This document shows positions 3,379-64,000 of a DNA stretch of 64,000 bases, in pieces. This stretch comes from a virus. A program made the translations under genes and the position numbers. The stretch spans positions 33,307 to 97,306 of IMG/VR virus record IMGVR_UViG_3300031576_000011, one strand, 5' to 3'. Within the stretch, counting starts at the first letter, position 1. The number at the start of each line of letters is the position of its first letter. The notes beneath the pieces were generated by a model. It had not been told where the DNA came from. It ran no database searches and saw nothing but the letters and a program-made list of their open reading frames with translations.

Positions 3379-4266
3379 ATGCCGCCCCCCACCGTCACGT
3401 CCGTGTCCCCGTCCTCGGGGCTCTCGCGCGGCGGCTCCCTGGTGTTCGTGAACGGCACGAACTTCGCCACCGTTGGGGCGGTGACCGTGTCGTTCGGCAC
3501 GCGCCTGGCGACCAGCGTCGAGGTCCGATCTGCGACGAAGCTCTCCTGTCTGCCCCCGCGCGGCGAGATCGCGCTGGGTGCCACGTCGCTGGCCGTCACG
3601 GTCACGGTCACGAACGTCGTGGCCGCCGAGAGTGACTTCCTGGCCTCCGCGTACACCTACCGACGTCCGGACCTCACGGTGGAGTCCCACCTGCTGACGG
3701 TGATCCGGACGCTCATGACCCGTATGTCGGAACAGTTGCTCGAGAACACGGTGCTGACCACGCACACGGACTTCGACCTGGCGACGTCCGATCTCCAGAA
3801 CCGGGTGGAGCTGGCGAAGGTGCCGGTGGTCATCCTGGCGGGTCCCACGCTCATCCCCCACCGGATCGTGAACTACAACGACCGGCCTCCCGTCTTCACG
3901 GGCAGCCCCAACCCCACGGCCTACAAGAAGTACGACCAGCACCGGGCCGTCACCCTCGAGTTCGACGTCCGGATCCTCTCGAAGGCCAAGAGCGAGCTGC
4001 TGAACCTGGTCCACCAGGCCATGGCCTTCCAGATGGGGAACGAGATGCTGGAAGTCCTCCGAGACCCCTTGAACCCGGGGGCCGGCTCGGTACACTACCC
4101 GCTTATGGTCGTGGGGGAGTTCGTGGCGGCGGATCGGCCGTCCAGGGCCAACCTCCGCGAGGCCGTCGGGCGCTGGAGTGTGGAGGGCGTGCTGATCGAG
4201 GACGGCGACCTCGTCGAGGACTACCCGACGGTCGACGTCACCACGCTGACGACCGAGGCGTTGTAG
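3379..4266 (+). CDS. IPT/TIG-domain tail terminator-like protein
   Basis: 295 aa, starting immediately after the previous stop. Residues 1-95 form an IPT/TIG immunoglobulin-like domain (PTVTSVSPSSGLSRGGSLVF, then NGTNFATVGAVTVSFG). The rest (about 105-295), with LTVIRTLMTRMSEQLLENT and WSVEGVLIEDGDLVEDYP, has the size and position of a tail terminator/neck protein directly upstream of the sheath. An extra Ig-like domain on such a protein is plausible as surface decoration. Function is inferred from order. Confidence 0.6.
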   Translation: MPPPTVTSVSPSSGLSRGGSLVFVNGTNFATVGAVTVSFGTRLATSVEVRSATKLSCLPPRGEIALGATSLAVTVTVTNVVAAESDFLASAYTYRRPDLTVESHLLTVIRTLMTRMSEQLLENTVLTTHTDFDLATSDLQNRVELAKVPVVILAGPTLIPHRIVNYNDRPPVFTGSPNPTAYKKYDQHRAVTLEFDVRILSKAKSELLNLVHQAMAFQMGNEMLEVLRDPLNPGAGSVHYPLMVVGEFVAADRPSRANLREAVGRWSVEGVLIEDGDLVEDYPTVDVTTLTTEAL

Positions 4267-4275
4267 GAGGGGACG

Positions 4276-5850
4276 ATGGCGGAGCTCCTGTCTTCGAAGA
4301 TCGTCGTCGTCGAGCGTCCCCCGGTCCTCCGCACGATCCCTGGCCAGCCGACGGCAATCGCGTCCACGCCCGTCGTGACGGAGAAGGGTCCGGTCCGGAC
4401 GCCCTCCCGTACCACGAGCTTCGAAGAGTGGGTCGGGATCTACGGGGGCTACATCGCGGCCTCGAAGTCCGCGGCGATCATCGAGAAGGCGTTCCAGAAC
4501 GGGCTGCGCGATCTCTGGACGTCGCGGGTGGTCCACTACACGGACATCACCAACCCGCTGACCAAGACCTCGGCGAAGGCCCAGGTCATCATTCCCGACT
4601 CCACGCCGGCGAACACGCTGCAGGTGGACGGGAAGTACGACGGCGCCTACGCGAACGGCCCGACGACCACGCAGGTGATCGTGGCCAACGCGAGCAACGG
4701 CGCGGCCGCGAATTACAACCTGGCGGTCAAGTACAAGGGCGTGGTCATCGAGGTCTTCCCGAACGTCGTGAACACGGCGGGGCTCCCCAACTCCGTGGAC
4801 ACCGTCGTGAACGCGACGGGCACCGGATCGAAGTACATCGCCGTGACCCGGCTGCTCACGACCCGTCCGGTGAACGGGACGTACAACCCCACGGGCGGGA
4901 ACGACGGGCTCACCGGGCTGGCGGACACCGACTACACGGGCAGCCAGGCGGGCGGGACCGGGGTGTACGCCTTCGACGCCACGCAGGGCCTGCGCCTGAT
5001 GTTCGCGCCGGATCGCCTCACCAGCGCCGTCGAGAACGCGATCATCGACTACTGCGAGGTGACGCGGAACGGCTCGATCTTCCCGGTCGTGGACCTCCCG
5101 GCTGGCCTGACGGTGAACGCGGCCATCACCCACGTGGAGACCACGGCCCTGCTGCTGAACAAGTCCGAGTTCGGCGTCGTGTACCACCCGCACCTGAAGA
5201 TCCTGAACCCGAGCCGGTCCGTGTTCGGGGACACCGACGAGATCGTGGTCCCGAGCTCCGGGCACCTGGTCGGGCTGTTCGCGCAGGTGGACGGGGCCCG
5301 CCCTGGCGGAGTCCACGACGAGCCCGCCGGCATCGAGCGCGGGATCCTGATCGGCGTGACCGGCCTCGAGTCCGACGAGGTGCTGGACGAGCGGAAGCGC
5401 GACCTCCTGTACCCGAAGCGGATCAACCCGATCCATTCCGATCCGGGCATCCCGATCTACGTGGACGGGGCGCGTGTGCTCAAGGGCGACAGCAACTTCC
5501 CGACGGTCGCGCAGCGCCGCGGCGTGATCGACATCGAGCAGTCGATCAAGGACGGGCTGCAGAGCATCCGGTTCCGGGCGAACGACGAGGAGACGCGCGA
5601 AGAGGTCTCCCGCACGATCTTCGCGTTCCTGCTCACGAAGTTCAACCAGAAGGCGTTCCGCGGTTCGACGCCCGAGACCGCGTTCTTCGTGGACGTCTCC
5701 GAGGAGATCAACCCGCCGACGGAGCGCGAGGCGGGGCGCCTGAACGTGAAGATCGGGCTCGCGACCCAGCGGCCGATCGAGTTCATCGTGCTCACCTTCC
5801 AGCAGGATCTCCGGGACCTCGAGGCCCAGTTGGCGTCGGCGGGAGCCTAG
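4276..5850 (+). CDS. contractile tail sheath protein
   Basis: 524 aa, preceded by AGGAGGGGACG. The N-terminal segment SFEEWVGIYGGYI is the usual sheath N-terminal motif. The C-terminal domain (about 400-524) has the NQKAFRG...FVDVSEEIN...GRLNVKIGLATQRPIEF pattern of the sheath C-terminal domain, which makes the inter-subunit mesh. Length is normal for sheaths. It defines the phage as a myovirus, and the tube gene follows as expected. Expression is probably high, since a stem-loop and a strong ribosome site separate it from the tube gene. Confidence 0.93.
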   Translation: MAELLSSKIVVVERPPVLRTIPGQPTAIASTPVVTEKGPVRTPSRTTSFEEWVGIYGGYIAASKSAAIIEKAFQNGLRDLWTSRVVHYTDITNPLTKTSAKAQVIIPDSTPANTLQVDGKYDGAYANGPTTTQVIVANASNGAAANYNLAVKYKGVVIEVFPNVVNTAGLPNSVDTVVNATGTGSKYIAVTRLLTTRPVNGTYNPTGGNDGLTGLADTDYTGSQAGGTGVYAFDATQGLRLMFAPDRLTSAVENAIIDYCEVTRNGSIFPVVDLPAGLTVNAAITHVETTALLLNKSEFGVVYHPHLKILNPSRSVFGDTDEIVVPSSGHLVGLFAQVDGARPGGVHDEPAGIERGILIGVTGLESDEVLDERKRDLLYPKRINPIHSDPGIPIYVDGARVLKGDSNFPTVAQRRGVIDIEQSIKDGLQSIRFRANDEETREEVSRTIFAFLLTKFNQKAFRGSTPETAFFVDVSEEINPPTEREAGRLNVKIGLATQRPIEFIVLTFQQDLRDLEAQLASAGA

Positions 5851-23972: not shown

Positions 23973-25579
23973 CTCCTCGCGGATCTTTCACGTTCCTCGG
24001 GTTCGACGGCTCGCGACTCGTAGACGTCCCTGGGTCTGGGCGGCTCGCGGTCGATTCGCGTTCCTGTCACCTTCCGGCTCGCGGGCTCCTTCCGTGCCTC
24101 CGGTACATCGGCTCGCGCTGAAGGTCCGTGCCTGTGCATCGACGGCTCGCGTGGCGTCCACGTTCCTCTCGCTCACCGGCTCGCGCGCTCCGGTCGTTCC
24201 TCTCTTCGGACGGCTCGCGAACCCTTCTCGTGCCGGTCTTCACACGGCTCGCAGGCTATCAGCGTTCCGGTTCATCTTCGGCTCGCTCGCCAGATACGGT
24301 CCGTACCTCAAACGGCTCGCGCAACTCATACGTCCCTTACCTGCACCGGCTCGCGCCTGCGTCACGTTTCTCGGAGGGTGCGGCTCGCGTGCTCGGCTCG
24401 TGCCTCACGGTTCTCGACTCGCGCACCTCGTACGTCCCGTGGTTTCAGAGGCCCGCGACCTCGGTTCGTTCCGGTTCCTGGACGGCTCGCGCCCTTCTGG
24501 CGTCCCTCCCAGTCCTCGGCTCGCGCCGATTCTCCGTCTCGCCGGTAGTGCGGCTCGCGAACGCTTTCCGATCCTGGCCTGCCACGGCTCGCTGGCTTCC
24601 ATCGATCCGATGGAGATGCGGCTCGCTCTGTCCGTACGTGCCTCGATTCCGACGGCTCGCTTCCCTTCAACGCTCCTTCCGGTGCGCGGCTCGCGCCCCC
24701 TTTCCGTTCCGAGTCCACTACGGCTCGCGCTTTGTCAACGTACCGAGATACCTTCAGCTCGCGGACGATCTCCGTTCCGGAGCGAATCCGGCTCGCTACT
24801 TCCGTACGTTCCTCGCCTCGCTCGGCTCGCGGCCTCCATGCGTTCCTTGACTCGAACGGCTCGCGCTTCCCACCACGTGCCCACTGTTATACGGCTCGCG
24901 TCGCTCCCACGACTCTCTTGTCGTTCGGCTCGCTCGGGAGTTCTCGTTCCTGCCGTCCCGCGGCTCGCTGGCAACTCACGTTCCTCGCCCATTCCGGCTC
25001 GCTGCGCCGCCTCGTCCCGGTCGTACCACGGCTCGCTTCTCTTGGACGGACCTTGGCCAGCACGGCTCGCGATCAATCAGCGCTCCTCAACTTCTTCGGC
25101 TCGCCCATCTTCCACGTGCCGAACCCTGTCGGCTCGCTCCTTCTCTTCGTGCCTCCCGTCGCACGGCCCGCGATCCTTGGTCGCCCCTCTCGTACTGCGG
25201 CTCGCGCAGATCTGGCGTTCCTCGACCCTTGCGGCTCGCTCCTGATCCACGTACCGAGTTTCCTCCGGCTCGCGTCTAGCGAGCGTGCCTCCTTCCTCGC
25301 GGCTCGCGCACCTTCCACGTTCCGAGCGATCCCTGGCTCGCGACTCATAGACGTCCCTGGGTGTGGGCGGCTCGCGATGGTCGCACGTTCCTGCCGCATG
25401 ACGGCTCGCTCCCGCTCGACGTTCCGGTGGCTCATCGGCTCGCGTCCATTTTGCGGATCTGCATGACCTCGGCTCGCTACTGGTCGGCGTGCCTAGTACC
25501 GGGCGGCTCGCGAGCGGTCCACGTTCCTTGGACAACACGGCTCGCGATCGGTTCACGTTCCTGAACGCTCTCGGCTCGC
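23973..25579 (-). repeat. TIGR-like array: 47 clear 34-bp units, two conserved boxes and two variable spacers
   Basis: Forty-seven clear units start with CGGCTCGC (+ strand) from 24007 to 25572, plus a decayed unit at 23973. Each is CGGCTCGC, 10 variable nt, CGTNCCT or CGTNCCG, 9 variable nt. Of 46 intervals, 43 are exactly 34 bp, two are 35 (after 24857 and 24926, an extra base in the 10-nt spacer) and one is 33 (after 25097). Box A is degenerate in only a few units (24415, 24449, 24755, 25164, 25334). The spacers are all different except that units 24007 and 25334 are near-duplicates. It lies 30 nt after the HNH stop and reads leftward with the tas-like gene. The alternating edge/loop repeats with paired 9-10-nt spacers match TIGR arrays, processed into short dual-spacer RNAs. 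It does not match CRISPR arrays. Confidence 0.85.
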
Positions 25580-25608
25580 GGTAAGAGGACGGGCCGACCA
25601 CGGAACGG

Positions 25609-26304
25609 CTAGTCCTTCGTCTCCTTGCGCGACCCGATCCATCTCGCCCCCTTGACCAGGTTGCATCGAAGGTGCGACGTCGCGCAGTTCTTCTTCGTGT
25701 GCGACCCGCCACGAGCAAGCGGCACGACGTGATCCAGCGAGAACGACATCGGATGCCTCCCGGCTGGCCATTGCGCGAACCGCCCGCAGAGATGGCATCG
25801 TCGTCCGTCGCGCAGGTAGACCTGGCGGGCGTCGACCTTCTCGGTGCGACTTCCGCGCATCTTGGCGCGCCGCCGATGCTGCTTCTCGGCTCCGCGTGCG
25901 CGAACCCGTTCAGGATTCTTCGCTCGATTCTCTCGATGCCACCGGTTGACCATGAGCCTATAGCGCTCGTAGTTCGCCGAGATCCATGCCAGAATGTTTT
26001 CGCGGATCCTGGTTCGGTTGGCCTTTCGATATCGCGCAGCGTTGGCGCGAGCCCTCTCCATGTTCTCCTGCCACCAGCGTTTCGCGTACGCTCGGCATCG
26101 GTACCTGAACTTGGCGTCGCTCCGGTACTTGGATCGTCTCTCTGCGTTGTACCTGTCCTTATTCCTGGCGTAGAACCGTCGCTCGAGTCTGCGCCACTGC
26201 TTCGGGTTCTTCGACTTCCAGAGTTCGTGGTAGCAGGTACCACACCGCTCGTGGGCGTGGATCTTCCTGATTCGTCCACACTCGCAGCAGCGCCTCGTTC
26301 TCAC
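25609..26304 (-). CDS. HNH endonuclease, translationally coupled to the Tas-like gene
   Basis: 231 aa from a GTG overlapping the upstream TGA (GTGA). N-terminal zinc site C6xxC9...C21xxC24. The middle (about 35-150) is a long, very basic helical region rich in Arg/Tyr/Trp. The C-terminus holds the HNH nuclease: CHLC (170-173), DHVVPLARGG (His 192), KKN (Asn 206) and HLRC (211-214). Catalytic residues all look intact. It resembles free-standing phage HNH homing enzymes. Here it is wedged between the Tas-like gene and its array, so it may supply the nuclease activity of the system in trans (compare TasH, where HNH is fused) or be a selfish insertion. Confidence 0.85.
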   Translation of the reverse strand: MRTRRCCECGRIRKIHAHERCGTCYHELWKSKNPKQWRRLERRFYARNKDRYNAERRSKYRSDAKFRYRCRAYAKRWWQENMERARANAARYRKANRTRIRENILAWISANYERYRLMVNRWHRENRAKNPERVRARGAEKQHRRRAKMRGSRTEKVDARQVYLRDGRRCHLCGRFAQWPAGRHPMSFSLDHVVPLARGGSHTKKNCATSHLRCNLVKGARWIGSRKETKD

Positions 26305-27503
26305 GCAGAAGCCTCGCGGTCCATGAGGGGCGGGATCGGGGTCTGGTGTCCGAGGTGGTCGATCGCGTACGGGGCTGGAGCCGGGAGCCCCTCGAGCTCG
26401 CGCCAGACCTTCCAGACCGTTCCGCCGAACACCTTGGCGAGCCACCGCCGCGCCTGCGCGTCGATGTGCCCCTTCCTCCACCCGAGGCGTACGGACCCGC
26501 CGGGGAGGTCGCGCCTCAGCCTGGCGAGGACGGCGCCCGTGACCATGCGTCCGGCCTCGAGGCCGGCGGTCGGCTCGATGAGCAGGCGGCCGAGCAGCCG
26601 CGGATCCGGCTGGTCGAGGCGCTCGAACATCGGCTCGCGCTTGGCGAGGCGCTCCTTCGTCTGGCGGTACAGGTCGTAGTACGCCCCGCCGGCGAGCACG
26701 AGGACGCTCGAGCACTTCCAGCTGTGGACCTTGAGGACCGGGGACCAGTTGCCCCGGACCCCCTTCTCGCGCCGCTGGATCGTCCCGTCCGGCCGCAGGC
26801 CCAGCCCGCAGTACGTCCACCACTTGCTGACCGTCGCCCAGGTGGCGATCCCGTCCGTCTCCTCGTACCAGCCCTTGGCCAGCGGCTCGTCGGTGCCGCC
26901 CCCATCGCCCTCCCCGTCCTCCTTCTCCCACGGCTTCATCCCGGGCTGCGCCGCGTGCAGTTCGCGCAGCATGACCTTCTTCCCCTGCCGCTCGAGCGCC
27001 TTGGCCTCGGACTCGTCGCGGAGCGCGTGGTAGTGGGGCCCGCCCGCGTAGGCAAGGAACCCGCCGAGGACGATCGGGCCTGCGCCCCGCACGCGCGAGA
27101 GCCAGGTCGTCCAGATCGGGTGGTCGAGGACGATCCGACTGATCGCCGCCTTGAGCTCCGCCTCGATGCGCTCGACGCGCGCGCCGAGGTAGTCGTGGAA
27201 CGCCTCGGCCTTCTCCTGGGGCATGCCCGCGTCACGCTTCAGGCCCCCGATCCGGTTGCCGATCCCGATGCGGGTCGCCTGGATCTGGTAGTACGTGTCG
27301 ACGTAGAGCCGGAGCTCCGCGAGCAGCGCGCGCTTGGCGTCGCCACCCTGGACCGTGGCCCAGGTCTGTGGGATCGGCGGCGTCGCGTCCCGCGCGTCGA
27401 CTTTGGAGATGCCGAGCAGCTCCTCGACCTCGCGCTTGCGACGCACGGCCTTCTTCTTCGTGGGCGTCGTGCCCAGCTTCGTCTTCGTCCCGATGCCTCC
27501 CAT
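26301..27503 (-). CDS. Tas-like protein (Nop/IS110 C-terminal-like domain)
   Basis: 400 aa from ATG 27503, 7 nt after AGAGGAG; the frame runs on to 27653 without a better start. A basic N-terminus (5-25) leads to a long helical region (55-125), then HPIWTTWLSRVRGAGPIVLG (128-147), YCGLGL (231-236), a basic KGVRGNW (247-253) and helices through 370. The order of a G-x-G-P hairpin, an xCGLG turn, RG and a terminal helical pair is that of the IS110 transposase C-terminal domain. TIGR-Tas Nop domains are structurally related to that domain. No DEDD/RuvC domain is present, so it is not an IS110 transposase. It would bind guide RNA from the adjacent array. Confidence 0.75.
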   Translation of the reverse strand: MGGIGTKTKLGTTPTKKKAVRRKREVEELLGISKVDARDATPPIPQTWATVQGGDAKRALLAELRLYVDTYYQIQATRIGIGNRIGGLKRDAGMPQEKAEAFHDYLGARVERIEAELKAAISRIVLDHPIWTTWLSRVRGAGPIVLGGFLAYAGGPHYHALRDESEAKALERQGKKVMLRELHAAQPGMKPWEKEDGEGDGGGTDEPLAKGWYEETDGIATWATVSKWWTYCGLGLRPDGTIQRREKGVRGNWSPVLKVHSWKCSSVLVLAGGAYYDLYRQTKERLAKREPMFERLDQPDPRLLGRLLIEPTAGLEAGRMVTGAVLARLRRDLPGGSVRLGWRKGHIDAQARRWLAKVFGGTVWKVWRELEGLPAPAPYAIDHLGHQTPIPPLMDREASA

Positions 27504-27516
27504 GTCGTACTCCTCT

Positions 27517-27531
27517 GCCGCCTGTGGCGGC
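27517..27531 (-). promoter_or_regulatory. hairpin upstream of the Tas-like gene
   Basis: GCCGCC/GGCGGC with a 3-nt loop ends 1-2 nt before the AGAGGAG ribosome site. It may gate translation of the Tas-like protein or end the DUF932 transcript. Confidence 0.4.
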
Positions 27532-27672
27532 GTTCTGTGTCCTGGCCAGGGTCCGGGGTTGACCGCGAGGTCCCTTCCTTCGCGCGCCTGGCCTCGCGCG
27601 AGCTCGGCGACGGTCGGTGTGGCCGGAGCCGTCAGGCAGTCGTTGACGCGCACTCCCGGCGCACGCGCGGGG

Positions 27673-28564: not shown

Positions 28565-31186
28565 CTATCCGGTTACGGTCGTGCCATCTGGCATGGCCGC
28601 CGGCATCGTGGCGTTGATCAGTTGCTGCTTCCGCACCAGCAGCCCGTGAACGCGACGGTCGAGCTCGTGGTCAGCCACAAGGCGCTGCACGAGCACGCCG
28701 CGGTGCTGCCCGATCCTGCAAAGGCGATCTTCCGCCTGCTGGTTCAGGGCCGGGGTCCAGTCTAGGGACACGAACACGACGTGCGCCGCCTTGGTCAGTG
28801 TGAGCCCTGTCCCGGCCGCCTGGATGGTGCCGGCGAGCCCGCGGTGCGTCCCGGACTGGAAGGCCGCGGCCACCTCGGCCCGCCGCTCGTCTGGGGTGTC
28901 GCCGGTGATGGTGAGCCAGCCCGGCCGCGCGGCCACGAGGTCGATCGCGGCGCGATGGGGCGAGAACACGATCAGCGGCTCCTCCGCCTCCTCGTACGAC
29001 TCGACGAGCTCGAGGAGCGCCGGGATCTTCGCGGCCGAGAGCGCCGTGCGCGCCGCCGAGATCCGGCGCATCACGTCCTCGGGAATCCGGAGATCGACTT
29101 CCAGGGCGGCCTCCGAGAGCTCAATCCCGCAGCCCCGGAGCATCTCGAGGACGTCGTCGCACATCGTGCGCGTCGCCTTGTCGATGCCGTTCACGAGGAT
29201 GTCCTGGTACCGCTTCGGCGGCAGCTCAGGGAGCACGTCCATGCGCCGCCTGCGGAGGCAGACCTTGGCCAGCAGCCCAGGGACCTCGGGCGCAGGCATG
29301 CCCCACTCATACCCCCCGAAGTAGCCCTTGCGCGCGTCGAAGAGCCGGAGGAACCGGGGCCAGGATCCGAACGCCTCCTCGGCCAGGCTGGCGGCGTGGA
29401 GCACGTACCAGAGTTCGCTCGGGCGGTTGAGCATCGGGGTTCCAGAGAGCATCCAGGTCCGTCCCATCCGGTCGAGCACCGCTCGCGACACCGCCTCGAA
29501 CTTTCGTGTCCGCTTGGACTGCCCGTTCTTCACGAGGTGGCAGTTGTGGACCAGGAGACCGTTCACCGAGTACGACGGGTGCCCTGCAACCTCGAGATTG
29601 TGGACGACAACCTCGCCGCCGTCGTAGCCCAGCGCTTCAAGATCTCGTCGTTCGAGAATCTCGACACCGTCCAGCCGAGCGAAGCCAGGACGCGGTCCTT
29701 GCGCCGATCCTGCGCCTGGCGATCGAGGGCCCGGTGTGATCCGCCATCTGCCTCGATCGCCAGGCGCAGGGCCGGGATGGCGACGTCGATCTTGTAGTGA
29801 CACGGGGATCCCATCCGCCTGCCAGTCCGTATCACGAAGTTCGACTCGGCCATCGGACCAAGGAATCGCAAGAGCCTCCGCTCCGGTCTGGTCGGTCCGG
29901 CGCCATTCCCGCCGCGCACCGACGGCCGATGACCCATCGCACGAAGGGTCGCCGACAGCCGTTGCCTGACCGCGGCCCGCCACATCGGGTTGCGCGTCCG
30001 CATCCGCTTTGACGAGCGCGCCGCCAGCGATGGATCCCTTCGGTTGGCCGCTCGGCCGGCCGCGCTGATCCTGGCGCGCACCTTCGCACAGTAGACCTTG
30101 GCTCTGATCTCTGGTTGCCACATTCTCCACGTCGCCGAGCAGGATGTTCCGCAGAATCTGGTGGGCCACGGGCGGTCCGGATACAGCCTTCGACAGTACG
30201 CGCATCGCCGTGAGGGCTTGGGATGCATGGGTAGTCATCATCCACTGTCCAGGCACTAGGTCAAGAGCGCGGCGCCAGCCACGGCCTGTCATGAACTTGT
30301 GGTTCTGGGTGACCACGATCGTGCTATCTCCAACGGTCAGCCGCACCATGCTCCGGGCTCGGCGGACGGACAACGCGAGCACGCGTCCAGCCCCTACCGC
30401 GTTGCAGACAACCTCGCCGACCCGCACACGCTCGATCGCCTTCGGGCCGCGCGGCGTGTCCACGAGCGTCCCGGATGGAAAGCACTCGTCCGCGATGAGG
30501 ATGGTGCCATCTGGCGGCGGGCCGTACTTCTCGTGCAGCACCTCACGCCGGTGCTCCCCGGGCTTGACGACGTCTGGCAAGACGTCGTAGTTGAGTACGA
30601 CCGCGTGCCCAGGCTGCGGCCAGTGGAAGGACTTGCGCCCTCGCAGCACCTCGACCTTCAGGTCCGGGCGCCACTTCGCCGCCTCCGCCCGCCACACGCC
30701 CTTGACAGAAGCCGGACAGACCACTACACTTGGTGCGCGCTTCGGTATCGCCAGAAGCGCCTGACACGTCTTGCCCAGACCGGGCTCGTCCGCAAGCAGC
30801 GCCCGGTCCCGGCCCGAGAGCCAGGCGACGCCGGTCTTCTGGTACGGGTAGAGCGCCGCCCCGTCGTCGGCCGCGGTCGCCGCCTCGGCCCCATGCGTGA
30901 GCCGGACCGCGGTCCGGGTCCGGTTGTGCTGGGCGACCGCGTACGCCTCGAGCGCCGCCCGGAGGTCCGGCTGCACGTAGGAGACCAGCTCCCGGATCCG
31001 GAGGGCGTCCAGCACCGCCTGGGTCTGCCCGCGCTCGCAGACCTGGGCCTTGCAGACCGGGTCGTACCGGGCGCCGGCCTCCCGGCACGCCTCGCGGTAC
31101 GACTCGAAGTCCCGGCGCGGGACGTAGCCCTGTGGCTCGATCCGGGTGCGGCCGTCGACCATCAGAGAGAGGGCGATCGTGCTCAT
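28565..31186 (-). CDS. SNF2-family helicase interrupted by an intein
   Basis: 873 aa precursor, ATGA overlap with the upstream gene. Residues 1-110 are an N-terminal domain. YPYQKTGVAWL and LLADEPGLGKT (131-140) are motifs Q/I. The DExH motif II is split as IADE(234)|intein|CH(549-550). SGTPMLNRPSELW is motif III. The C-terminal lobe has ITGDTPDERR, AAGTGLTLTKA and QAEDRLCRIGQ. The spliced protein would be about 559 aa, close to SMARCAL1-like annealing helicases of phages. It probably remodels forks or branched DNA. Activity requires splicing because motif II is interrupted. Confidence 0.9.
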   Translation of the reverse strand: MSTIALSLMVDGRTRIEPQGYVPRRDFESYREACREAGARYDPVCKAQVCERGQTQAVLDALRIRELVSYVQPDLRAALEAYAVAQHNRTRTAVRLTHGAEAATAADDGAALYPYQKTGVAWLSGRDRALLADEPGLGKTCQALLAIPKRAPSVVVCPASVKGVWRAEAAKWRPDLKVEVLRGRKSFHWPQPGHAVVLNYDVLPDVVKPGEHRREVLHEKYGPPPDGTILIADECFPSGTLVDTPRGPKAIERVRVGEVVCNAVGAGRVLALSVRRARSMVRLTVGDSTIVVTQNHKFMTGRGWRRALDLVPGQWMMTTHASQALTAMRVLSKAVSGPPVAHQILRNILLGDVENVATRDQSQGLLCEGARQDQRGRPSGQPKGSIAGGALVKADADAQPDVAGRGQATAVGDPSCDGSSAVGARREWRRTDQTGAEALAIPWSDGRVELRDTDWQADGIPVSLQDRRRHPGPAPGDRGRWRITPGPRSPGAGSAQGPRPGFARLDGVEILERRDLEALGYDGGEVVVHNLEVAGHPSYSVNGLLVHNCHLVKNGQSKRTRKFEAVSRAVLDRMGRTWMLSGTPMLNRPSELWYVLHAASLAEEAFGSWPRFLRLFDARKGYFGGYEWGMPAPEVPGLLAKVCLRRRRMDVLPELPPKRYQDILVNGIDKATRTMCDDVLEMLRGCGIELSEAALEVDLRIPEDVMRRISAARTALSAAKIPALLELVESYEEAEEPLIVFSPHRAAIDLVAARPGWLTITGDTPDERRAEVAAAFQSGTHRGLAGTIQAAGTGLTLTKAAHVVFVSLDWTPALNQQAEDRLCRIGQHRGVLVQRLVADHELDRRVHGLLVRKQQLINATMPAAMPDGTTVTG
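29543..30484 (-). mobile_element. intein inserted in the DExH box
   Basis: Residues 235-548 of the helicase ORF (314 aa). Block A starts CFPSGTLVDTPRGPKAIE with Cys 1. Block B is VVTQNHKFMTGRGW, with the TxxH-type His. Block F/G ends in SYSVNGLLVHN followed by the extein Cys 549, so all splicing residues (Cys, His, His-Asn, +1 Cys) are present. The middle, about 330-505, is low-complexity Arg/Gly/Pro-rich and looks like an out-of-frame reading of the endonuclease gene nested there. Block G is intact, so splicing is likely. Confidence 0.88.
29563..30228 (-). CDS. Vsr/EDxHD-type homing endonuclease inside the intein, overlapping frame
   Basis: 221 aa in the +1 frame relative to the intein. N-terminal zinc finger C9xxC12...C26xxxC30. 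A DNA-binding region (about 70-108: RSSKRMRTRNPM ... LSATLRAMGHRPSVRGGNG) is typical of phage homing enzymes. The nuclease domain has YKIDVAI (Asp 148), LAIEADGGSH (Glu 159, His 165), RRKD and LGWTVSRFSNDEIL, the Vsr-like PD-(D/E)XK family associated with inteins. No strong ribosome site precedes the ATG; production could be by internal initiation or a +1 frameshift from the intein. The gene ends 20 nt before the last intein codon. Confidence 0.82.
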   Translation of the reverse strand: MHPKPSRRCAYCRRLYPDRPWPTRFCGTSCSATWRMWQPEIRAKVYCAKVRARISAAGRAANRRDPSLAARSSKRMRTRNPMWRAAVRQRLSATLRAMGHRPSVRGGNGAGPTRPERRLLRFLGPMAESNFVIRTGRRMGSPCHYKIDVAIPALRLAIEADGGSHRALDRQAQDRRKDRVLASLGWTVSRFSNDEILKRWATTAARLSSTISRLQGTRRTR

Positions 31187-48176: not shown

Positions 48177-48614
48177 CTAGGCGAGGCGCCCGTCGAGCAC
48201 CGCGAGGATCTTGAACACGTACTTGCTCCCGTCCCGGACCGTGACCTTGAGTCCGTCCCCGTCGTTCAGGGTGACCCGCCCCTCCCCGTTCTCCGCCGTG
48301 GCCAACCCCAAGTCGGGATTGATCGAGATCTTCCAGGCAGGGTTGGAGCCCACCAGGCCCCGGAGGGTCTCGGCGTGTGCCTCCGCCGCCTTGGCGCGCT
48401 CGGCCGGGGTGCTCGACGCGCGGGTCGCGCGCGCCTCGGTGTTGGCGAGCACCGTCTTGGCACGGTCCAGGTTCGTCTGGAGCATGCGCTGGACGCTCCC
48501 CTCGGGAGCGTTCGCCACGCAGATTTCCAGGCTCGCGACCTTCTCCTTCAGGCTCGCGACCTTCTCGGTCAGCCGCTCGCCCTTCTCGGACTCCCTCTGC
48601 TGCAGGATGGTCAT
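48177..48614 (-). CDS. coiled-coil protein
   Basis: 145 aa. Repeated EKVASLKEKVASLE heptads near residues 15-40 make a coiled coil. The C-terminal half has SINPDLGLATAENGEGRVTL and may be a beta domain shared with the 46755 product. It is the first gene left of the non-coding island. Confidence 0.65.
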   Translation of the reverse strand: MTILQQRESEKGERLTEKVASLKEKVASLEICVANAPEGSVQRMLQTNLDRAKTVLANTEARATRASSTPAERAKAAEAHAETLRGLVGSNPAWKISINPDLGLATAENGEGRVTLNDGDGLKVTVRDGSKYVFKILAVLDGRLA

Positions 48615-48860
48615 GGTCCCTCGCCATGGCTTCGGGGTGCCAGGCTACCCGTGGTTTCGCGCCGCGCGTGCCCCCGTCGTCGGGGGCGCCTACCGCGCCG
48701 CGCCGCTCCCAGGTACGCGAACCGCGTACCGCGCCACCGCCGCTAGCGGCAACTACTACCAGTAGCGGTCTACCGCCGCTACCGGCGGTATACCCCCATA
48801 GGTAGCGCGTAGTCGTTCCGGTCTGTTCGGGTGCCGTACGGATTACGACCCTACCGCCTA

Positions 48861-48878
48861 TGTAAAAAAGGCTTTACA
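48861..48878. promoter_or_regulatory. inverted repeat TGTAAA-N6-TTTACA
   Basis: A 6-bp palindromic pair in the only A/T-rich patch of the island, followed by the 8-bp CCCCTAGG hairpin. An operator or promoter element is possible. Confidence 0.45.
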
Positions 48879-48897
48879 CCCCTAGGCGCCCTAGGGG
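48879..48897. repeat. inverted repeat CCCCTAGG/CCTAGGGG
   Basis: Perfect 8-bp inverted repeat with a 3-nt loop. Copies of CTAGG-containing words recur across the island. Confidence 0.6.
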
Positions 48898-49351
48898 TTA
48901 CGGCGATCGTACTGGTTGCAAACCAGAAACCCGAACAGGGAAAAGTGTACCCGAACTCGGCGTACGCCTATACCGCCCTAGCACTTACGGAGTAGTGTCA
49001 CGGCCGTAGTCAACCACTACAGACCGCCGCTACCCGCGCCGCTACGTAGAACGTTACCGTAGGGTAGCGGTAGCAAACGGCGTAAAGCCGTACGGGGCCG
49101 GGACTAACGGAGGCCGGCTACTACGGGTACGGCTATTCGATAGGCGAGGCCGCGCGGCCGGCTGCTAGCGGCGCGCCTAGGCGCGCGCCGGCGCCTACCT
49201 AACCAGAACGGATACCGTACAGTATATCCTACCGGAACCCGTACGGACGCGCTCTATCATGTGCGGCGCGCCGCTACCGGCCGTCTAGGCGCCGGCATCG
49301 CGTAAACCCTAGCGGCCCTAGGGGATACCGCGTACTACACGGACCCGTGCC

Positions 49352-49369
49352 GTACGGCTATAGCCGTAC
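49352..49369. repeat. 18-bp perfect palindrome GTACGGCTATAGCCGTAC
   Basis: Longest uninterrupted palindrome seen in the island. Typical size for a dimeric protein site; also contains GTAC words at each end. Confidence 0.6.
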
Positions 49370-49836
49370 CTATCCCGTACGGCCGGGCCAGGTACGCGGC
49401 TTGCTACGGCGCCAGCAAGCCCTAGTCCATTCCGTATCGCCTACGGCGGTACGGGTTTACGCCTGAAACCGAACTAGCACCCTACTGGCGCTAGGTCTGA
49501 GTACGGTACGCGCTACAGCAAACGACGGTCCGCGCCGTAAGCCCTAGGGCCGTCGGCGCTTACGTTTCCGCCGTAAGCCTAGGGGCCCCACGGGCTTGCG
49601 TTTGGTAGGTGTTTTTTAGGGCCGCGCAGCACGCGGCACCCACCAGAGAAAGTGCGCCCCATTCCAAACGCGCCGGTCTAGGCGCCGGCTACGATGGCAC
49701 TTTTCCGCGGGTGCCTGCCTTCGTGGGTTGCGCTGGCGCGATTCTGGTACCTGGGCCCGCGTTTTCGTCCGTTCGCGTCCTGGGGCAACGTGGCGCGAAT
49801 GGGGCCCCACCCAGAAATCCTGGGTGGCGGTGCATT

Positions 49837-51339
49837 TCAGGCTGCCGGAGGCGTGGCCGGTTCATGGGCTGGCGCGCGGGCGACCTTGAGTGCGGCGTCG
49901 ACCCACGTGTCCTGGGCGCGGGCATCGCTGCTGGCGACAGGCGTCCCCGAGAGCCCGACCCAGCCGTCGCCGGTGGCTGGTGGGACTGGCCTGAGCCCGA
50001 GGTTGGGCTTGTCGGTGGCGTAGGGGTGGGCGTAGGCGCAGGCGCAGCGTCCGGCGATCCAGGAGCCGTTGCGTGCCTGGAAGCGCAGGCCGGGGCGGGA
50101 CTCGCTGCAGGCGTCGCAGGTGTGTGGCGTGGGGGGTGGGGTGGTGCTTCGTGTGGCGGCTGACTTCCGGAAGTCGGCGGCGGAGGTCGCAGCGGCGGCG
50201 ATCCAGCGCTTGGCGTCGGCGGGTCGCATGGATCCGGCGGGTGTGAGTCCGAGGGCGACCCAGTGTCCGGCGTTCCAGGTGGCGAGTTCTGGGAGCCGGA
50301 GCTGGTGGCCGTCGAGGGTGGGGGCGGCGTATGGGTCGGTGACGCAGCCGCGGCAGGCGGCGGCGAGCCAACCGGCGGTGGGGTGGTTCCGGAAGACGGT
50401 CTGTGGGGCGCGCCAGTCGCAGGCGCTGCACTCGTGGCCGCGGGCGCGGGGGTTGGTGCCGCGTTGGCGTGGGGAGCCCTCGAGGCGGAAGTGGGAGCCG
50501 CCTGGGGGGTCGGGATCTGGGTCTGGCGGGAGGGGTGGCGGATCGAGAACGGCGTCGGACAGGGGCTGGGGGTCTGGGCTCGGGTGTTGTGCCTTCGGAT
50601 GGCCCATCCGCTGCGCCCGGCCGTCGCCGGCCCCATCAAGGGCCGAGCGAGCGGCCGGCACATCGACCGCGGTGGTTGCGGGGGTGGGGGGGTCTTGAAT
50701 AGGACTCGGACTCGGAGCGGACCGAGAGCGGTCCGCTCTCCGGTCCGCTGACGGTCCACTGGTCCCAGCGGGGGTAGAGCGGTCCGAACTTGTGGGGCCG
50801 CTGGGCCCAGTGGTGATTTCTCCGCTGGGTCCAGCGGTGGAACTTGTGGGCTTTTCTGTCGGAGTCGGATCATGCACTATACTGCCGTACCGCTCTCGGT
50901 CCGCTCCCGGTCCGCTGGGCCCAGCGGTCGTTTTCACCGCTCTAGGTCCGCTGGGCCCAGCGGTCGGTGAGCGGTGCTTTCCGAAGCGACCATCGTTGCC
51001 GCGAGCGGCGGCGGAAGCCTCGGCCCCGCGGCGGCGGCCGCGCGCGAGATTCTCGCGCGAAACGCGGACCTGGGCGGCCGATCGGTTCCAGTGGAGGAAG
51101 TCGTGGATCTGGTAGTTGGTCCCATCGGGATCGAGGAGGCGGACCGCGAGGAGGCGGGCGATCGTCTCGGCCGCCCCAGGGGCGGAGAAGCTCTCGGCGA
51201 TCTCGCGGGGAATCCGGCCGTCGGTGCCGTGACAGTTGGACCACGAGATCATGCGGAACCACGGGCCGAGGTGCTCCTTGCCGGCCCCCACGATCTTCGG
51301 ATGCGAGTGGGCCTGGTCGTCGATCTTGCCCCAGCTCAT
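49837..51339 (-). CDS. replication initiator/replisome-organiser-like protein
   Basis: 500 aa from ATG 51339 with GCGGAGG upstream. Residues 1-110 (MSWGKIDDQAHSHPKIVGAG ... IHDFLHWNRSAAQVR) are a replisome-organiser-type N-terminal domain. Residues 115-200 form a low-complexity linker with repeated TAGPSGP units encoded by GC palindromes. The C-terminal half holds two Cys-pair zinc knuckles (CSACDW...CRGC, CDACS...CAC). In lambda O and related initiators the origin lies inside the initiator gene's linker, and the layout here is the same. Function assigned by N-terminal similarity and this geometry. Confidence 0.6.
   Translation of the reverse strand: MSWGKIDDQAHSHPKIVGAGKEHLGPWFRMISWSNCHGTDGRIPREIAESFSAPGAAETIARLLAVRLLDPDGTNYQIHDFLHWNRSAAQVRVSRENLARGRRRGAEASAAARGNDGRFGKHRSPTAGPSGPRAVKTTAGPSGPGADRERYGSIVHDPTPTEKPTSSTAGPSGEITTGPSGPTSSDRSTPAGTSGPSADRRADRSRSAPSPSPIQDPPTPATTAVDVPAARSALDGAGDGRAQRMGHPKAQHPSPDPQPLSDAVLDPPPLPPDPDPDPPGGSHFRLEGSPRQRGTNPRARGHECSACDWRAPQTVFRNHPTAGWLAAACRGCVTDPYAAPTLDGHQLRLPELATWNAGHWVALGLTPAGSMRPADAKRWIAAAATSAADFRKSAATRSTTPPPTPHTCDACSESRPGLRFQARNGSWIAGRCACAYAHPYATDKPNLGLRPVPPATGDGWVGLSGTPVASSDARAQDTWVDAALKVARAPAHEPATPPAA
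50798..50963. repeat. cluster of CCGCTGGGCCCAGCGG palindromes in the initiator gene
   Basis: Four copies, two of them perfect 16-bp palindromes, at 50798, 50822, 50912 and 50948; starts differ by 24, 90 and 36 bp, all multiples of three, so they encode TAGPSGP-like units. Related partial words continue to about 50700. They look like iterons within a replication-initiator gene. Confidence 0.6.
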
Positions 51340-51556
51340 GGGTGCCTCCGCGAAGAGTTCCCCCCGGGCCCGGGCACACCCGGCCGCCGGAAGTAGCGCC
51401 GCCACCAAGGGCGCGGACCACGCCGAGCATGGCCCCGACCGTGCGGCCTGGACCCGGGGGGACAATCGGTGGGTGGCCAGGGCATGTCGGCTCGGCGCGC
51501 GGCGCCTTCCGGTGCCACCACGCGCGGCGGAACCGTAGGCCGATCGATCGGAGAAG

Positions 51557-52021
51557 TCAAGGAGAATCCGCCTCGAAATCCGGCGGCACCATCGGGAGCA
51601 GCCGGTCGACGATCGAGGGCGAGACGCGCCAGAACTTCTGGGCCCCCTTGGCGGGAACGGGCGCGAGGAGCGGGACGACCCGGTCGAGGACCCAGCCGAT
51701 CGGGCCGCGGAACCAGGGACGCTGGTCGAGAGGAAGTTCGTCGACGTGGTGGACCAGGTGCGAGATCCGCGCGAGCCCGATCAGGGCGCCGCGCACGTCG
51801 GCGTGGGGGGGCCAGGCTGGGGGGCGCGCGATCGTGTCGGGCTTGAGCCCCGCGTGGACGAGGAACCACCGGCGCTGCTTCCCGGTCCCGAGGAACGTGG
51901 GCCCGTACCCGAAGGGGCCCCAGCTCCGGTTCTCGACGCGCTTGGGGCCCCACACGATGCAGGCGGCCCACGGCTGGAAGAGCGTGAGGGCCCGCCACCG
52001 GGTGTGGTTCTGGCCCGTCAT
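51557..52021 (-). CDS. ASCH-domain protein
   Basis: 154 aa. LTLFQPWAACIVWGPKRVEN is the ASCH N-terminal motif, with KRRW and RPWF parts following. ASCH domains bind RNA or modified nucleosides, and phage examples may regulate host translation or protect modified RNA. Starts at ATG 52021. Confidence 0.75.
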   Translation of the reverse strand: MTGQNHTRWRALTLFQPWAACIVWGPKRVENRSWGPFGYGPTFLGTGKQRRWFLVHAGLKPDTIARPPAWPPHADVRGALIGLARISHLVHHVDELPLDQRPWFRGPIGWVLDRVVPLLAPVPAKGAQKFWRVSPSIVDRLLPMVPPDFEADSP

Positions 52022-63785: not shown

Positions 63786-64000
63786 GGTTCCGCCTCCTCT
63801 GGCCTGGGGCCACGCCCAGGCATGTCTAGGTGCTTCCCGCACACCCGCTCGTAGCCGCCGTTCGCCGTCGGTTGACCGCAGTCCGCGTACGCGGGGCAGC
63901 CCTCGCGCTGGCATTTGTTCTCTGGACAGGGCTGGGGATCGTCCCACCCGAGCACCTCGAATGCATCCTCGAGCGCAGAGAGGCCGCCGGTGTAGTAGCA
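63776..64000 (-). CDS. Cys-rich protein, start outside window
   Basis: The frame is open from the right edge. The visible 74 residues contain PCPENKCQREGCPAYADCG and VCGKH, seven or more Cys, a likely zinc cluster. Overlaps the next gene by 10 nt. Confidence 0.5.
   Translation of the reverse strand, partial: CYYTGGLSALEDAFEVLGWDDPQPCPENKCQREGCPAYADCGQPTANGGYERVCGKHLDMPGRGPRPEEAEPCA

Follow-up and report, generated by a model that had tools for sequence, protein, structure and literature searches.

A TA-rich array of degenerate dyads beside a replication initiator gene: a candidate replication origin in a soil phage

What does a phage do with 1.2 kb of DNA that encodes no protein? The question is raised by a gap between two minus-strand genes of IMG/VR record IMGVR_UViG_3300031576_000011, which derives from a soil phage with a genome of approximately 70% GC. 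A preliminary description had singled out this gap as a noncoding island with deviant word usage and many palindromes, and had offered as possible roles an origin, packaging, a late-early switch, small RNAs, or a decoy for palindrome-cutting host enzymes. Here, we analyze the gap within a window of 64,000 nucleotides (bases 33307 to 97306 of the 97,306-base record; positions are those of the window unless stated otherwise) and tentatively propose a replication origin as its best explanation.

The phage and its record

At 143 of 144 positions, the 144 bases with which the record begins (L002 1-144) are identical to those with which it ends (window 63857-64000); though classed as linear, the record therefore probably closes to a complete circular map of approximately 97,162 bp. 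Genes for a tail sheath, tape measure, and baseplate identify a contractile-tailed phage, which also encodes a terminase, a portal, and a capsid-type protein. By tail sheath, the closest isolates are BRock-kind Streptomyces phages (27% identity), and a scan of IMG/VR with this protein returned one 26-kb contig. By capsid, the closest isolates are Stenotrophomonas and other phages (approximately 35%), the most numerous matches being to Streptomyces phages, and a single-protein scan of IMG/VR yielded no relatives of the capsid gene.

Several other features of the genome deserve mention. An SNF2-type helicase gene (window 28565-31186) contains a weak internal Hint-domain match, possibly an intein. 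There are two transposase-like genes, one with TnpB-type (OrfB_IS605, Cas12f1-like) domains in the scan covering it (L002 12684-13859) and one matching the phrog_4285 transposase (window 26301-27653). At window 24001-27000, where plus- and minus-strand gene blocks meet, the plus strand displays a strong excess of T over A (AT skew of -0.43 to -0.24).

Composition of the noncoding gap

The features on which the following sections build are:

48615..49836, no strand: noncoding gap between two minus-strand genes (gene calls, periodicity)
48685..49625, no strand: TA-rich core, largely degenerate dyad elements near GTAANCCSTASGG (composition, shuffles, motif search)
49837..51339, minus strand: replication initiation protein gene (phrog_2447, E 1.2e-18)

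The gap, hereafter also called the island, extends exactly from a 145-codon gene of unknown function (48177-48614, minus strand) to the 500-codon initiator gene (49837-51339, minus strand). Within the core, the longest open reading frame starting with ATG, GTG, or TTG measures 54 amino acids, and three-base periodicity vanishes there. Coding in another frame was rejected on this ground, and the description of the gap as noncoding is borne out.

The deviant word usage is equally clear. Counting both strands, and with expectations taken from the rest of the window, the island holds 194 TA (20.7 expected), 30 CTAG (0.9 expected), 12 CCTAGG (0.0 expected), and 12 CGTACG (0.7 expected); CCTAGG and CCGTACGG are nearly absent from the rest of the record. 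The TA ratio (rho) is 2.59 in the core versus 0.38 in the rest of the window, with TpA raised approximately 9-fold and with GA (0.50), CA (0.57), and AT (0.67) depleted. Every word that marks the island contains TA, as do TACCG, CTAGG, and CGTACG, which had been named as dominant; GGCGCC, named alongside them, is not distinctive (4 copies versus 1.6 in shuffles) and is missing among the top enriched words. Per 300-bp window, we count 33 TA in the gap versus 12 in the richest window elsewhere in the 97-kb record, within which the composition of the core is unique.

Palindromes, too, are as abundant as had been claimed. The island contains 21 palindromes of 8 bp versus 10.4 in shuffles, 11 TA-centered ones versus 2.7, 15 hairpins with arms of at least 7 versus 1.4, and 114 repeated 8-mers versus 34, each number being reached in none of 400 dinucleotide-preserving shuffles of the island. 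No regular spacing emerged, as a spectral peak is lacking; TA-TA distances that are multiples of 12 or of 36 are slightly overrepresented, a pattern spotted post hoc, and some diverged copies are spaced by 36 bp or inverted. We found no tRNA and no sigma-70-like promoters in 48400-51600, and a blastn search of records from phages and plasmids gave no homologues of the island.

An array of dyad elements

By motif discovery, the core comes down to one element near GTAANCCSTASGG, of which approximately 20 degenerate copies, some in each orientation, are spread over 0.94 kb. With a first-order background from the island itself, the de novo search yielded a 12-mer near AANCCSTASGGC with a log-likelihood of 64.8 (24-29 in shuffles) and a 22-mer, the same 12-mer stretched leftwards to CCGTAA, with a log-likelihood of 89 (51-57 in shuffles). 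Allowing up to two mismatches, 9 of the 10 matches to GTAANCCSTASGGC in the 97-kb record fall inside the 1.2 kb of the island, a count that is biased by the discovery of the motif in the sequence being scored and for which the shuffles are the only control. Individual element copies and the structures around them are as follows:

48834..48846, minus strand: element copy GTAATCCGTACGG (motif match)
48889..48901, minus strand: element copy GTAACCCCTAGGG, within the CCCCTAGG hairpin (motif match)
48976..48988, minus strand: element copy GTAAGTGCTAGGG, 2 mismatches (motif match)
49083..49095, plus strand: element copy TAAAGCCGTACGG, 2 mismatches (motif match)
49234..49246, plus strand: element copy GGAACCCGTACGG (motif match)
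49302..49314, plus strand: element copy GTAAACCCTAGCG (motif match)
49316..49328, minus strand: element copy GTATCCCCTAGGG (motif match)
49370..49382, plus strand: element copy CTATCCCGTACGG (motif match)
49434..49446, plus strand: element copy GTATCGCCTACGG (motif match)
49537..49549, plus strand: element copy GTAAGCCCTAGGG (motif match)
49352..49369, no strand: 18-bp perfect palindrome GTACGGCTATAGCCGTAC
48878-48898: hairpin ACCCCTAGG-cgc-CCTAGGGGT
48864..48869, minus strand: T6 run downstream of the CCCCTAGG hairpin, pointing out of the core
49612..49617, plus strand: T6 run downstream of a hairpin, pointing out of the core
49803..49832, minus strand: hairpin CCACCCAG-gattt-CTGGGTGG right after the initiator stop codon, a possible transcription end

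The 18-bp palindrome and the hairpin with the cgc loop, both quoted in the preliminary description, are present. T6 runs are rare in this genome: the whole 97 kb has just three, and two of them lie in the gap. An exact 15-base pattern derived from two element copies matched six viral contigs, in none of which (0/6) it lies in a TA-rich island.

The adjoining initiator gene and its relatives

The N-terminal 100 residues of the initiator share 34-41% identity with proteins of Streptomyces, Gordonia, Mycobacterium, and Propionibacterium phages. In its C-terminal part (window 49840-50400), two related Cys-containing repeats, HECSACD... and HTCDACS..., can be recognized by eye and are possibly zinc-binding. 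Between these two parts of the protein, the gene carries repeats of its own:

50716..50975, no strand: second repeat set, inside the initiator gene, candidate iterons

This set includes five palindromic copies of CCGCTGGGCCCAGCGG, at 50756, 50798, 50822, 50912, and 50948 (span 50756-50963), and elsewhere in the window the motif finds only matches with three mismatches.

We compared the locus with those of 80 relatives of the initiator from IMG/VR and 5 isolates. Repeats in this family are most frequent 200-400 bp into the coding sequence of the initiator (mean of 7.2 versus about 2), and the studied phage conforms to this pattern. None of the 85 relatives has a comparable island beside the initiator; the position is thus not conserved with the family, and a TA-rich island as a general trait of the family is rejected. 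Like the negative blastn search, this speaks against the reading of the island as an origin that is proposed below. Four related isolates show no skew switch at the initiator either, and the initiator family consequently leaves both the island and the skew switch of this phage unexplained. Single-protein scans of IMG/VR with the two flanking genes gave no relatives.

Strand skew and duplex stability

Two further features place the gap apart from the rest of the genome:

49591, no strand: minimum of cumulative GC skew, in the linear and the circular detrended record
48787..49086, no strand: least stable 300 bp of the record, candidate unwinding region (nearest-neighbor energy; tied with 15282)

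The change in cumulative GC skew that had been suggested as a check is thus found inside the gap. No positive step in skew elsewhere in the genome is as large as the one located there, whether windows of 2 kb (48794), 4 kb (49444), or 6 kb (48894) are used. At 2 kb the step amounts to 0.276, with a runner-up of 0.134 and a standard deviation of 0.062. The direction of transcription does not change across the gap, the DUF6197 genes (44108, 45182), the initiator, and the DUF1643 gene (52422) all being on the minus strand. At fourfold-degenerate sites, the coding-strand skew is +0.25 in 38-48.6 kb and -0.50 in the initiator gene, becoming weaker with distance. The step could also correspond to a junction of modules with different ancestry. 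The least stable 1-kb stretch of the record likewise lies in the gap; at both lengths, the difference from a stretch at about 15.3 kb is slight.

A candidate replication origin

We consider it close to an even chance that the gap is the bidirectional replication-origin region of a theta-type phage, in which a phage protein would bind the dyads and the TA-rich DNA would open. The array, its composition, its low stability, the adjoining initiator, and the skew switch are direct observations on this DNA. In the proposed sequence of events, the approximately 20 dyads would be bound by a phage protein, most simply the adjacent initiator, which would wrap the DNA; the weakly stacked stretch rich in TA steps would then open, being weakest at 48.79-49.09 kb; and helicase and primase would be loaded, sending forks in both directions. 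The in-gene palindromes may act as the main iterons of the initiator, in which case the island would assist in unwinding or as an enhancer; alternatively, they may form a separate autoregulatory site.

Measured against iteron-type theta origins, the locus has an adjoining initiator gene (phrog_2447), a repeated motif in the gap and again in the in-gene palindromes, although as degenerate copies, a candidate unwinding stretch of low stability at both 300 bp and 1 kb, and a switch in strand composition (minimum at 49591). No DnaA boxes (TTWTNCACA) occur in the gap. Since both the family and the studied phage carry repeats within the initiator gene, the origin may lie there instead. A two-part origin, with iterons in the initiator gene and a separate 0.94-kb array of TA-centered degenerate dyads that a second protein or the initiator would wrap so as to open the DNA of this 70% GC genome, is conceivable, but we regard it as rather unlikely. 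Among the roles first suggested, the origin has gained independent support from initiator adjacency, skew, and lowest stability; a single structured RNA is disfavored and a decoy received no positive support.

Known systems offer partial likenesses. In the Streptomyces theta plasmid pWTY27, RepA binds a long inverted repeat and replication is bidirectional (PMC3583192). This locus and the similar ones of pFP1, pFP11, and SCP2 resemble the island: in each case a noncoding stretch of a high-GC replicon adjoins an initiator-type (rep) gene and contains many repeats, both direct and inverted. However, the pWTY27 locus spans 300 bp with exact 7-8-bp repeats, whereas the island spans 0.94 kb and is highly degenerate and rich in TA steps; unlike pWTY27, the studied phage also has further repeats within the initiator gene. 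The likeness concerns the way in which the site may work, and we do not claim membership in the Streptomyces plasmid rep/iteron loci, because the position is not conserved. As in a lambda-type origin, where the O iterons lie inside the initiator gene, the initiator gene studied here holds five palindromic repeats; in contrast to that type, the island is outside the gene, more than 1 kb from the in-gene repeats, and built from another motif.

Alternative explanations

The gap may instead be an operator, stoperator, or centromere-like array that a phage protein coats for early transcription, segregation, or genome organization, with replication starting at the in-gene palindromes. We see this as unlikely, albeit the likeliest of the alternatives. 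It would fit the dense, degenerate dyads in both orientations, the second candidate iteron set, which lies within the initiator gene as repeats tend to do in the family, and the position of the gap, which would include the promoter for the gene that begins at 48614. However, no ParA, ParB, integrase, or repressor appears among the 25 of 26 Pfam families listed for the 86 predicted genes, and the ParA/ParB-type genes that would accompany a par centromere are accordingly missing from that set. In addition, the elements form a single 1-kb cluster, whereas stoperators are dispersed, and such an array does not predict the skew switch.

Some precedent for an array of this kind comes from another mobile element. 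Within 4.2 Mb of fetched DNA, a biased sample in that many of the loci were chosen by TA-palindrome patterns, the nearest noncoding composition is a 0.85-kb CGTACG array in locus L041 (IMGVR_UViG_3300004481_001312, 4000-4840; rho TA of 2.8), downstream, by eye, of a DUF2637-like membrane protein gene. This array may serve a mobile element in transfer or stability. The sps palindromes of pIJ101, which are 12 bp long, occur in 1-3 copies, are bound by SpdA2, and affect stability (PMC4170104), share with L041 and the island the repetition of short palindromes in or near genes of high-GC mobile elements. Unlike the island, L041 is a near-uniform CGTACG array beside a DUF2637-like gene, and sps is limited to its 1-3 copies.

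Other loci were inspected as well. CCGTACGG palindromes are dense in the C-terminal coding parts of genes that we labeled by eye as DUF2637-like (L042 8398-8936, L045 11560-11760, L054 3657-4420), and those of L045 and L054 lie near genes labeled, also by eye, as FtsK/TraB-like translocases. All three were rejected as counterparts of the island, since CCGTACGG there falls inside coding sequence, and the high TA ratio of L194 and L159 reflects simple coding-type repeats. Further noncoding viral stretches rich in TA and CTAG are found at L280 7979-8378, which lies between divergent gene blocks, L252 480-1000, L236 6700-7250, and L336 5490-5740.

We find it quite unlikely that the gap encodes a structured noncoding RNA that would end at the T6 runs and might act as the primer or as a regulator at an RNA-based origin like that of cluster A mycobacteriophages. 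Hairpins do precede two of the three T6 runs of the genome, both pointing outwards, so that a transcript may exist, and predicted folding of the minus strand is strong relative to shuffles (z of -5.1, with -6.85 in an earlier run; excess of approximately 39 kcal). Structured RNAs, however, usually fold more strongly on one strand. The plus strand exceeds its shuffles equally strongly (z of -7.9; excess of approximately 48 kcal), contrary to the strand-specific folding expected of a large structured phage RNA, and G-U pairs are below shuffle level on both strands. Because the two strands fold in excess to a similar degree and G-U pairs are few, the elements appear to be mainly DNA dyads rather than one structured RNA. 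Searches of Rfam, including GOLLD, ROOL, and other families, gave no match up to an E value of 5, and there is no homologue for covariation. RNA-based origins do exist in prophages: cluster A mycobacteriophages have no repA and express an RNA beside parABS, and a noncoding stretch of a few hundred bases, comparable to the island, is needed for their replication (PMC7157519). The studied phage differs from these in encoding a protein initiator, in having no par genes found, and in folding without strand specificity.

That the gap is a degenerate repeat remnant, a functionless module junction, or a mis-assembled insert seems to us distinctly improbable. The unusual composition, the diverged copies that are 36-bp-spaced and inverted, and a skew change that could mark a mosaic junction would all agree with such an origin of the stretch. 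On the other hand, the island exactly fills the space between two genes with undamaged frames, its motif recurs above shuffle levels, and a rho(TA) of 2.6 is matched by almost nothing else in the 4.2 Mb of DNA fetched from viruses and bacteria, so that the island does not come from an ordinary genome.

A site of DNA packaging or other end processing would be noncoding, palindromic, and unique in the genome, as the gap is, and yet we think it very unlikely: the terminase (L003) is approximately 65 kb away on the linear record, the ends of the record overlap by 144 nt and so do not give the physical ends, and the skew switch and the adjoining initiator would be left unexplained. A decoy or sink for palindrome-cutting host enzymes would account for CTAG and GTAC sites that are concentrated in the island and rare elsewhere, but is hardly credible, as the excess is strongest for TA-centered dyads of at least 8 bp and the asymmetric 12-22-mer rather than for all 4- or 6-bp sites, and cutting in the island would still break the genome.

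Implications

Origins of uncultured phages are seldom located, and the locus described here is a sharp, testable candidate for which both the initiator and the repeated element can be specified. If the two-part origin were true, the TA-rich stretches in L041, L280, and perhaps L252 would represent a recurring, undescribed kind of nucleoprotein site. If the gap is indeed the replication origin that we favor, a phage with 70% GC would open its origin by means of dense palindromic TA steps and not of A+T-rich blocks.
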